DNA from: an uncultured Clostridia bacterium
Lineage (GTDB): Bacteria; Bacillota; Clostridia; Oscillospirales; Ruminococcaceae
Length of the DNA stretch: 64,000 nucleotides
Direction: 5' to 3'
Assembly (NCBI GenBank): GCA_947177735.1
Contig: CAMWVP010000002.1
Location: 1 to 64,000, forward strand
The notes under the pieces are model-generated. The model was given only the letters and a program-made list of their open reading frames with translations. It was not told the origin of the DNA and did no database searches. A program made the translations under genes and the position numbers. Shown here in pieces: positions 30,571-54,093 of the stretch. Every line of letters starts with the position of its first letter. Positions within the stretch are counted from its first letter, which is position 1.

Positions 30571-30645
30571 TATTGCTCCCCCAATTAAATATTGCCATAT
30601 TTTAAACTTATTTCCGGTGTTTTGGAAAAGTTTAATTGGAGCATC
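30571..30645. repeat. MITE-like repeat, family D copy 1
   Basis: TATTGCTCCCCCAATTAAATATTGCCATATTTTAAACTTATTTCCGGTGTTTT...GTTTAATTGGAGCAT; second copy at 51721. Confidence 0.65.
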
Positions 30646-49232: not shown

Positions 49233-50546
49233 ATGCAAATTCCAAAAAGAATAGCCGCGGGGCTTATCAACGCGCTCAAGGGCGGCGTTGTTCCGCGCAC
49301 GGGGCTTGGTTATATAGCCGTCGGGCGCACTAACGAAATAAACGCCCTGCTGCACGACGTTGCTATCGCCGAGGACGGCGGCGCGTTCTTCCGCTTTATC
49401 GTCGGAAAATTCGGCAGCGGCAAGAGCTTCCTTATCCAGACTATGCGCCAGCACGTTATGGACAGGGGGTTCGCCTCCGCGGACGCGGACTTATCTCCCG
49501 AGCGTCGGTTAATGGGCACTAAGGGGCAGGGGCTCGCTACCTACCGTGAGCTTATGCGTTCGCTGTCCGTTAAAGCCAAGCCCGACGGCGGAGCGCTGTC
49601 GCTGATACTCGAGAAGTGGATAAACGGCGTGCGCTCGGAGGTTATCGCTGACGGAATGTCACCCGACAACGCGTTCTTCGATACCGAGGTAGAAAAGCGC
49701 ATCTACGCGAAAATAAACGGCTTGGAGGATATGGTTCACGGCTTCGATTTCGCGGCGGTCATCGTCACCTACTACAAGGCGTTCCGCGACGGCGACGACG
49801 AGCGCCAGAGCAAAGCCGTCCGCTGGCTGCGCGGCGAGTACTCCACCAAGACCGAGGCTAAGCAGGACATCGGCGTAAACGTCATCATCTCGGACGAAAA
49901 CTGGTACGATTATATCAAGCTGATGACTGCGTTTCTCGTGAACGCGGGCTACAAGGGCTTGGTCATTATGATAGACGAGCTCGTCAACATAATGAAGATA
50001 TCCAACTCTGTAACGCGCCAGAACAACTACGAGAAAATACTTATGATGTACAATGACGTAATGCAGGGCAAAGCCTCGCACCTCGGTATCATTATGGGTG
50101 GCACTCCGCAGTGCGTAGAGGATACTCGCCGCGGCGTGTTCAGCTATGAGGCGCTGCGGTCAAGGCTGGAGCGCGGTCGATACGCGACCGATGAAACGCA
50201 TGATATGTTAGCGCCGATAATCAGGCTTAATCCGCTTTCTTATGAGGAATTGACGGTGCTGACCGAGAAGCTCTCGGAGATACACGCGCTGCTGTATGAC
50301 TACGAGCCGAAGATAACTCTCGAGGACAGGATATTCTTTGTCAAGGCGGAATTCGAGCGCGTAGGCGCGCAGACCAACGTCACGCCGCGCGAGATGATAC
50401 GCGACTTTATCGAGCTGCTGAATATCGCCTACCAGCACCCCGAGAAAACTCTCCCCGAGCTTATGGGCGAGGATGAGTTCAAATTCGCCGATGGCGAGGG
50501 AGACCCCTCCGAAAAAGCGGACGGCTTTGAAGATTTCGATTTGTGA
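49233..50546 (+). CDS. BREX-type (BrxD/DUF2791-like) P-loop ATP-binding protein
   Basis: RTNEINALLHDV...FIVGKFGSGKSFLIQTMRQHVMDRGFASADADLSPERRL; Walker B GLVIMIDELVNI. Confidence 0.75.
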   Translation: MQIPKRIAAGLINALKGGVVPRTGLGYIAVGRTNEINALLHDVAIAEDGGAFFRFIVGKFGSGKSFLIQTMRQHVMDRGFASADADLSPERRLMGTKGQGLATYRELMRSLSVKAKPDGGALSLILEKWINGVRSEVIADGMSPDNAFFDTEVEKRIYAKINGLEDMVHGFDFAAVIVTYYKAFRDGDDERQSKAVRWLRGEYSTKTEAKQDIGVNVIISDENWYDYIKLMTAFLVNAGYKGLVIMIDELVNIMKISNSVTRQNNYEKILMMYNDVMQGKASHLGIIMGGTPQCVEDTRRGVFSYEALRSRLERGRYATDETHDMLAPIIRLNPLSYEELTVLTEKLSEIHALLYDYEPKITLEDRIFFVKAEFERVGAQTNVTPREMIRDFIELLNIAYQHPEKTLPELMGEDEFKFADGEGDPSEKADGFEDFDL

Positions 50547-50552
50547 GGTTTT

Positions 50553-51014
50553 ATGAAGATAATAAATTATTTTGAAAGCGATCACCGCGAGCATTGGCTC
50601 AATGAAATAAAGCGCAGCGATTGGGGCGCTGCTCCGACGCTGGCGGGATTTCTGGAAAACGGAACGTTCTTTGAAAATCTGGGCGACGGTATTTTGCTGC
50701 TGCTTACAGACGGAGATAAGCTCGTTTCATTTGTAACGTTTGCGCGTAACGACTGTATCGACGACAGAACATTGTACCCGTGGATAGGCTTTGTGTACAC
50801 GTTTCCCGAGTATCGCGGACACCGTTATGTCGGACGGCTGATAGAGCGCTGCGAGGAGATCGCCCGCGAGCATAACGTGGAGAACGTCTACATATGCACC
50901 GACCATATCGGGCTGTACGAGAAATACGGATATTCCTATCTCGAAAACCGCGTTGATATCTACGGCGGCGACAGCAGAATCTACGTAAAGAACTTAGGAC
51001 GACCTGCATCTTAG
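50553..51014 (+). CDS. GNAT family N-acetyltransferase
   Basis: YPWIGFVYTFPEYRGHRYVGRLIERCEEIAREHNVENVYICTDHIGLYEKYGY. Confidence 0.85.
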   Translation: MKIINYFESDHREHWLNEIKRSDWGAAPTLAGFLENGTFFENLGDGILLLLTDGDKLVSFVTFARNDCIDDRTLYPWIGFVYTFPEYRGHRYVGRLIERCEEIAREHNVENVYICTDHIGLYEKYGYSYLENRVDIYGGDSRIYVKNLGRPAS

Positions 51015-51025
51015 GGAGGACTTGC

Positions 51026-51703
51026 GTGAATAAAAAGAGCGTTTACATTATAGCGTCGGTGTTCGTGTTTTCGGTGCTGGTCGATCTGATAGACGCCGTT
51101 GTGCAGCCGAATTACTTTGTTAAAATCCCGATCAAGATATTTTTCTTCTTAGCCTTGCCCGTTATCTTTTTTATTGTAAACAAAAAAGAATTCAAGGAAT
51201 TCAAAAAATTATTCGTATTCAAGAAAAGCGGGATATTAAAGTCACTGCTCCTCGGAGCGGCGGTTTACGCGGTAATAATGTCGGCGTTTTTTTTACTGAG
51301 GGATATAATAGACTTTTCAAGGGTAACGTCAAGTCTTACGAACGGCATGGGGATCACCGCGGACAATTTTATTTACGTGTCGCTGTATATTTCCCTGATG
51401 AATTCGTTTCTGGAGGAATTCTTTTTCAGAGGCTACGGCTTTATCACCCTGAAAAAATACACGAACAGAAAGTTCGCGTATATATTCAGCTCGGGAATAT
51501 TCGCGGTATATCATATCGGAATGCTTATAGGAATGTTCGGCATAGGGGCTTTATTGCTGCTGCTTTTCGGACTTATCGCCGGGGGCTGTATATTTAACTA
51601 TCTGAACGAAACAAACGAAAATATCTATTCGTCGTGGTTTGTACATATGTTCGCGAATTTTGCTATCAATACCGTCGGGCTCATCCTGTTCAACGGTGTT
51701 TGA
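51026..51703 (+). CDS. CPBP-family intramembrane metalloprotease
   Basis: NSFLEEFFFRGYGF (EExxxR motif); IFAVYHIGM; polytopic. Confidence 0.85.
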   Translation: MNKKSVYIIASVFVFSVLVDLIDAVVQPNYFVKIPIKIFFFLALPVIFFIVNKKEFKEFKKLFVFKKSGILKSLLLGAAVYAVIMSAFFLLRDIIDFSRVTSSLTNGMGITADNFIYVSLYISLMNSFLEEFFFRGYGFITLKKYTNRKFAYIFSSGIFAVYHIGMLIGMFGIGALLLLLFGLIAGGCIFNYLNETNENIYSSWFVHMFANFAINTVGLILFNGV

Positions 51704-51720
51704 TCCGGTTATGTACACTC

Positions 51721-51829
51721 TATTGCTCCCCAAAATAAATATTGCCATATTTTACACTTATTTCCGGCGTTTTAACCGCCCCCGGCGGGGCAAACGCCGG
51801 AAAACTTGGTAAATTTTTATTGGAACATA
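51721..51829. repeat. MITE-like repeat, family D copy 2
   Basis: TATTGCTCCCCAAAATAAATATTGCCATATTTTACACTTATTTCCGGCGTTTT...AAATTTTTATTGGAACAT. Confidence 0.65.
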
Positions 51830-51855
51830 AATATCGATAGAAAATCGAGGGTTTT

Positions 51856-54093
51856 ATTAGCAACAACAGTTTTTACAGGTACGCGCCGTTTATCCAAGAC
51901 TACATCTACCGTAACAAGTGGGAGGAGCTGCGCGATATTCAGGTCGCCGCCGCCGAGATAATCTTCGACACCGAGGACAATCTGCTGCTCACCTCGGGCA
52001 CGGCGAGCGGCAAGACCGAAGCCGCGTTCCTCCCAGTGATAACGCAGCTCTGGGAGAACCCCTCGGGCAGCGTGGGCGCGTTGTATGTCTCGCCGCTCAA
52101 GGCGCTGATTAACGACCAGTTCGAGCGGCTTGAAGAGCTGCTCGAGGAGGGGGATATCCCCGTCACTAAATGGCACGGCGACGCTTCTCCCTCCGCGAAA
52201 AAGAAGCTCGTGAAAAATCCGCGCGGCATTATGCAGACCACCCCCGAGAGCCTGGAGAGCCTGCTTATGCGCAACAGCTCCAACTCCTACCGTCTGTTCT
52301 CCGACCTGCGGTTCGTGATAATCGACGAGGTTCATTACTTTATGGATAACGACCGCGGCTTGCAGCTCCTGTCGATACTGGAGCGGCTTCAGCGGCTCAT
52401 CGGATTCATTCCGCGCAGGATAGGACTTTCCGCGACGCTGGGCGACTGCACCAACGCCGAAAAATGGCTTTGTATGGGAACGAATGCGCCCTGCAACACT
52501 CCCAAAGTTCACGATAAGAACCGCAAGGTGCGGCTGTCGGTACGGTTCTTCCCGCTCGCCGAAAAAATACCCAACTCGGACAGTAAGACCCTGCTCGAGC
52601 ATTATTACGAGCACCTGTACGAAAGCACGCACGCCAAGCGCTGCATACTCTTCTCAAACAGCAAAGGCGAGGTCGAGGAGAACATCGCGCATATGAAGCG
52701 TCTTTCCGAGAAAAACCACGGCAACGACTGCTACCTCGTTCACCACGCGAATATCTCACCCGCGCTGCGCGAATTCGCTGAAAAGCGTATGAAATCGGGC
52801 GAGCTGCCCGTATGCACGGGTGCGACGGTAACGCTCGAGCTCGGTATCGACCTCGGACATCTCGAGCGCATAGTGCAGACGGGCTGTCCGCTCACGGTCT
52901 CGGGGCTCGTTCAGCGTCTCGGACGCACGGGGCGGCGCGGCGACGCTGTCGGCGAGATGAGGTTCGCGTTCCGATGGGATATGAGCCTGCCGCCGAACAC
53001 GTTCTACAAGGAGATCAACTGGGATATCGTGATGTGCGCGGCGATGATACTTCTGTACACGCGCGAAAAATGGGTCGAGCCTATGTACCTCCCGAAGCTG
53101 CCGTACAGTCTGTTATACCACCAAACTATGTCGATACTTGCGGCAAGCGGCTCGGTTCAGCCAAAGGAGCTTGCACGGCAGGTGCTCACGCTGGCGGTTT
53201 TCCGATACGTTTCCAAAGAGGACTACCTGCTCTTACTGCGCCATATGCTGGAAAACGGTCATCTTGAACGCGGCGAGGACGGCTTGATGATCGGCGAAAA
53301 AGGCGAGGCTGCCGTGAATAATTACGAATTTCTGGCGGTGTTTTCCGTGCCCGTCGAGTACACGGTGCGGACAAGCTCGGGCAATGGCGCGTCGGCGGAG
53401 ATAATCGGCACGGTGCAGAACCCGTTCCCGCCCAAATCGCAGTTTGCGCTCGCGGGGCAGGCATGGGAGGTCACGGAGCTCGACAAGAAGCAGACCACCA
53501 TCTACGTAAAAAAAATCGAAGGCATCTCCGCGAATATGTGGACGGACACGGGTAACGAGTACGTTCACACTAAAGTGATGAAGAAGATACTGGAGGTTCT
53601 GCGCAGCGACGAGCAGTACGCGTTCCTCGACGAAAGCGCTCGCAAGCGCCTTGACGATATCCGCAGACTGTGCCGAAACGCGACCATGAGCAGTGAGATT
53701 GAAAATGGCAAGGAACTGCTCGGCGGCACCGTGGCGGTCGGAGAAAGGATCGTGATACCGCTCTCCGAGACGGTATTCGCAGTGTTTCCGTTCCTTGGGA
53801 CGCGCGGCACAATGGCGCTGCTGTACGCCCTCCGAGAGCGCGAATTTCAGGCGAATGTGTGGCTTCAACGGTACATTCCCGTGTGCATTGAGGTTCAGAC
53901 CGATATGGGCAGGGAGGCGTTGATAGCCGCGCTGAACGAGATAAAGGAAAACGGCGCTGATAAGTATTCGTTCCGTATTCCCGAAAACTGCGAGATAGCG
54001 GGAAAATTCAACGACTATATACCGCGGACGCTGCTCACAAAGCAGTATATCGAGGACTATCTCGACACCGACGAGCTGCGGTATATGGAATAA
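51856..54093 (+). CDS. DEAD/DEAH box helicase (BrxHI/Lhr-like), probable ATT start
   Basis: in-frame upstream extension (ATT)SNNSFYRYAPFIQDYIYRNKWEELRDIQVAAAEIIFDTEDNLLLTSGTASGKTEAAFLP carries Walker A; FVIIDEVHYF; QRLGRTGRRGD. Confidence 0.85.
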   Translation: MSNNSFYRYAPFIQDYIYRNKWEELRDIQVAAAEIIFDTEDNLLLTSGTASGKTEAAFLPVITQLWENPSGSVGALYVSPLKALINDQFERLEELLEEGDIPVTKWHGDASPSAKKKLVKNPRGIMQTTPESLESLLMRNSSNSYRLFSDLRFVIIDEVHYFMDNDRGLQLLSILERLQRLIGFIPRRIGLSATLGDCTNAEKWLCMGTNAPCNTPKVHDKNRKVRLSVRFFPLAEKIPNSDSKTLLEHYYEHLYESTHAKRCILFSNSKGEVEENIAHMKRLSEKNHGNDCYLVHHANISPALREFAEKRMKSGELPVCTGATVTLELGIDLGHLERIVQTGCPLTVSGLVQRLGRTGRRGDAVGEMRFAFRWDMSLPPNTFYKEINWDIVMCAAMILLYTREKWVEPMYLPKLPYSLLYHQTMSILAASGSVQPKELARQVLTLAVFRYVSKEDYLLLLRHMLENGHLERGEDGLMIGEKGEAAVNNYEFLAVFSVPVEYTVRTSSGNGASAEIIGTVQNPFPPKSQFALAGQAWEVTELDKKQTTIYVKKIEGISANMWTDTGNEYVHTKVMKKILEVLRSDEQYAFLDESARKRLDDIRRLCRNATMSSEIENGKELLGGTVAVGERIVIPLSETVFAVFPFLGTRGTMALLYALREREFQANVWLQRYIPVCIEVQTDMGREALIAALNEIKENGADKYSFRIPENCEIAGKFNDYIPRTLLTKQYIEDYLDTDELRYME

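Follow-up and report, generated by a model that had tools for sequence, protein, structure and literature searches.

A candidate ATT start codon in the Shango-type helicase gene of an uncultured Clostridia bacterium

A sngC-type helicase gene of an uncultured Clostridia bacterium carries ATT at the position where its orthologues start with ATG, GTG or TTG. We consider it probable that this is a genuine lineage-specific ATG-to-ATT change, which has been tolerated and leaves lowered but real translation from the ATT. The gene lies in positions 1 to 64,000 of contig CAMWVP010000002.1 (forward strand; GCA_947177735.1), and this whole stretch is referred to here as the window. The source assembly is a single draft of the metagenome type, comprising 247 contigs.

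The ATT codon and its upstream region

The helicase frame has no usual start codon at its conserved N-terminus. Downstream of the in-frame TAG come five codons (AAA ATC GAG GGT TTT), then the proposed ATT start, followed by AGC AAC AAC AGT TTT TAC in a frame that is open and uninterrupted to 54093. A sequence-only reading of this DNA had claimed that no ATG, GTG or TTG stands between the stop and GTG 52036, past Walker A, and that GAGGG precedes the ATT at a suitable spacing. Both claims hold when the frame is read through again. Thus far, sngC resembles AUU-initiated genes, which have no usual start at the conserved N-terminus and a suitably spaced Shine-Dalgarno (SD) element before the AUU.

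Table 1. Features of the sngC region, with the rpe-like gene of the same genome. Positions are those of the window unless a contig is named.
Feature	Position	Strand	Remarks
sngB-type BrxC/BrxD-family ATPase	49233..50546	+	PADLOC SngB 1.2e-176; Pfam BrxC_BrxD 9.4e-163
GNAT acetyltransferase	50553..51014	+	between sngB and sngC; Pfam Acetyltransf_1 2e-10
CPBP (Rce1-like) membrane protein	51026..51703	+	between sngB and sngC; Pfam Rce1-like 4e-14
Dispersed MITE-like element, 113 bp	51721..51833	+	between CPBP gene and sngC; TATTG...CAATA-type inverted ends, central palindrome
In-frame TAG stop	51838..51840	+	ends the frame upstream of the helicase; from reading the sequence
Shine-Dalgarno-like GAGGG	51847..51851	+	four bases before ATT; predicted 16S pairing -8.3 kcal/mol
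ATT, proposed sngC start codon	51856..51858	+	orthologue ATG aligned here (ATTAGCAACAAC versus ATGAGCGACAAC)
sngC-type DEAD/DEAH helicase gene	51856..54093	+	745 codons from ATT; PADLOC SngC 7.4e-217; Pfam DEAD 1.3e-30, Helicase_C 9.2e-15
GTG, earliest in-frame usual start	52036..52038	+	downstream of Walker A, without SD; judged not the true start
rpe-like gene without usual start	G000 contig C10:37503-38159	minus	L224; likewise at L225, L226, L231, L232, L234, L263, L271 and L272 (9 genus genomes in all)

The SD at the ATT is of ordinary strength for this genome, while GTG 52036 has none. Among random 18-mers, 94% pair more weakly than the site at the ATT does, as do 35% of conserved ATG genes; the value for GTG 52036, -1.4 kcal/mol, beats only 27% of random 18-mers. 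A product started at this GTG would be without the Q-motif-like WEELRDIQ and Walker A (TASGKT, residues 49-54 numbered from the ATT). The other in-frame candidate, TTG 51820, precedes the TAG and lies inside the 113-bp repeat element. These two codons are the nearest in-frame usual starts, but translation from the GTG, or from the TTG with readthrough of the stop, is extremely unlikely: the GTG would forfeit Walker A and leave a constrained stretch untranslated, and the TTG has no obvious SD by eye.

Other signals near the start are unremarkable. A promoter and terminator scan returned nothing at sngC above chance, predicted mRNA folding over the start is ordinary (z -0.4 and 0.4), and an Rfam search of 50900-52100 matched no family.

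The region upstream of sngC has been remodelled in this lineage. The CPBP gene is missing at the corresponding place in the nearest relatives, and the parts of relatives that were fetched contain no match to the 113-bp element. Within this genome the element has 12 further matches (70-92% identity, seven of approximately full length); a partial copy lies in the window at 30571-30623. Its central hairpin is strong (-28.6 kcal/mol, z -3.7) and was not called as a terminator by the scan. We also considered whether insertion of the element destroyed an ATG, and rejected this idea: the element stops 22 bases short of the ATT at its right end, and the CGAGG preceding the start is like that of sister species G020, where the same core precedes an ATG.

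Orthologous starts and constraint on the frame

The ATT is confined to this genome among the loci compared. We compared start codons across loci L031-L078, a check that the sequence-only reading had named, drawing on collections with one genome per species; each locus was counted once, and several genomes are listed under two locus ids. All 46 loci outside this genome with a readable start have ATG, GTG or TTG, with GTG in L050 and TTG in L052 as the non-ATG cases. These starts lie at most two codons from the ATT-aligned position, and most are at the same position or one codon off. Sister species with 89-95% protein identity have ATG, from which the ATT of the window differs by one base (ATTAGCAACAAC versus ATGAGCGACAAC).

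We favor the following history. In this lineage, a single G-to-T change would have turned the ancestral sngC ATG into ATT; fMet-tRNA would then initiate at AUU 51856, positioned by the retained GAGG SD element, and would yield a full-length 745-residue protein at lower output. The proposal that the ATT serves as the start is consistent with its ancestral position, the retained SD and the intact, constrained product; that the AUU is used, and that its yield is low (AUU/AUA sites in S. aureus give approximately a tenth of the AUG level), we infer.

The same comparison does not bear out the earlier suggestion that a weak start throttles the enzyme. AUU starts do reduce output and can regulate (PMC13009471), but a selected translational throttle, as for infC or pcnB, is very unlikely here. 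The weak codon is not conserved across species, with every other orthologue carrying ATG, GTG or TTG, and no feedback is known between SngC and initiation. Neither is the SD extended to compensate for a weak codon: its rank of 35% among conserved ATG genes compares with 97% for the SD of infC. Drift that was tolerated, and not an evolved switch, is the most likely account of the change.

We find that sngC is under strong purifying selection, including the part before GTG 52036. On this genome's own branch dN/dS is 0.05-0.06, against 0.03-0.04 on the sister branch, and sngB gives 0.03. Codons 1-75, which span everything upstream of GTG 52036, give 0.07-0.11 against three sister species; a frame constrained from the AUU on is a further feature of AUU-initiated genes. 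Therefore sngC has been translated from near 51856 during most of its recent history, although a very recent loss is still compatible with these values.

Such a loss, in which a real ATT would be a recent mutation that effectively silences sngC as a first step of decay, seems unlikely. The ATT is unique to this genome, its immediate upstream region now includes a repeat element and an additional gene, and ATG-to-ATT in Listeria rsbW reduced expression strongly (PMC13068326). The slightly raised dN/dS on the own branch, a comparison of bare estimates, could be the start of relaxation. The frame is nevertheless wholly intact and still strongly constrained, the gene is near-universal in the genus, and an AUU usually leaves some initiation. 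The sequence-only reading had offered a mutated ATG as the alternative to a functional ATT; as history this agrees with the ATG-to-ATT change that we favor, but a mutated start need not mean a dead gene.

Reliability of the base and other unusual starts

Start codons elsewhere in the sampled genome are intact. A comparison of approximately 845 kb from this genome against 1.3 Mb from sister genomes gave 277 orthologous frames, and sngC is the only credible one without a usual start that the sister species keeps. This genome shares the aligned codon with its relatives at 203 of their 232 SD-backed starts. In the few listed cases where it has AUH or CTG instead, a usual start is close by. For most remaining matches, both genomes carry a usual start at the same site, one (C7 39445) resembles an antisense frame and was discounted, and rpe has no usual start in either genome. 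Thus, in the part sampled, the assembly is not generally poor at start codons.

These results bear on whether the draft carries one wrong base where the organism itself has ATG. A usual start at this place in all orthologues, a change of one base and a draft of 247 contigs would each fit such an error. We nevertheless judge it improbable, given the single credible loss in 277 frames. Typical consensus error rates are 1e-5 to 1e-4 per base, at which well below one of the approximately 55 genes of the window would be expected to carry an error of this kind. We infer that the base is genuinely present in the DNA of the cell.

AUH starts in the genus appear to be real. The infC gene has a conserved ATC start after AAAGGCGG. 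In this genome infC (G000 contig C196:1445-1948, minus strand, L104) also has an in-frame GTG that overlaps the SD. A second gene, putatively rpe (ribulose-phosphate epimerase-like, judged by the N-terminus of the family), lacks ATG, GTG and TTG at its N-terminus in 9 of the 36 genomes of the genus, and in three further genomes its usual starts are all badly placed. Approximately nine bases past a GGA stands ATT, ATA or ATC; in several species a CTG right after the GGA, aligned with the ATG of G029, is a second candidate start. One of these codons would have to start the gene. AUH codons alone remain in G007, G010 and G034, where the frame has a stop shortly upstream. The usual start is missing in independent assemblies, so this is not a single-genome error.

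Tentatively, this genus of uncultured gut Oscillospiraceae might tolerate AUH starts more readily than most bacteria, with ATG repeatedly giving way to AUU, AUA or AUC in ordinary genes, as for rpe across many species and for sngC in this one, perhaps via relaxed start-codon proofreading. We regard this broader idea as doubtful.

A Shango-type gene set and the significance of its ATT

The helicase is of the SngC type, with BrxHI/HII as the second-best model, and a putative defence role is assigned by likeness to Shango. The Shango anti-phage system comprises three genes: TerB-like SngA, ATPase SngB and helicase SngC (PMC10250203). This genome encodes sngB and sngC together (matches of 1e-176 and 7e-217), with sngB three genes upstream of sngC and the GNAT and CPBP genes intervening; the corresponding genes of G029 and G019 run sngB, GNAT, sngC. 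A TerB-like SngA is not encoded in the same operon; its match lies on a separate contig of the genome (C36:12317-13945, E 3.7e-56). The arrangement thus differs from the compact single locus of three genes in Pseudomonas.

The Shango-type set behaves like a core component of the genus, not a mobile island. We found sngC in 34 of 37 genus genomes and sngA in all 23 searched, and most loci with enough flank have both sngB and sngC, often adjacent. This near-universal presence is unlike the compact system described in Pseudomonas (PMC10250203).

The sngC ATT probably extends, in a modest way, a phenomenon already known. In E. coli, infC is AUU-initiated. So is pcnB, as PMC13009471 cites from Binns and Masters (2002). 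As in both of these, the AUU of sngC would start a full-length cellular gene; their starts are conserved or experimentally shown, whereas that of sngC is known from the sequence of one genome. Among Gram-positive Firmicutes, Staphylococcus aureus has cvfC1, in which AUU initiation is experimentally known, and ccpN (AUA), each with an AUH start and a suitably spaced SD (PMC13009471). The AUU and AUA genes characterised in S. aureus have extended SDs, and in poor medium their output was approximately 10% of that from AUG (PMC13009471). Their weak starts are conserved, in contrast to the ordinary SD of sngC and the ATG of its orthologues.

The closest parallel in history is provided by Listeria rsbW mutants, in which a single base changed an ancestral ATG to ATT and the protein was lowest yet still detectable (PMC13068326). 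That change arose under laboratory selection and its lowered expression was shown, whereas the change proposed for sngC would be natural. In Listeria infC, initiation at AUU is likewise experimentally known; the gene is fixed at ATT, and rare or flexible starts occur in <0.3% of conserved Listeria genes (PMC13068326).

Gene finders limited to ATG, GTG and TTG would place the helicase start at GTG 52036 and lose Walker A, and an intact gene would seem broken. In several relatives the same misannotation would affect rpe. Provided that the ATT is real and in use, it would represent a natural replacement of an ancestral ATG by AUU in an otherwise conserved gene of a defence-type system; the cases documented so far are mainly infC, pcnB and a small number of regulators.
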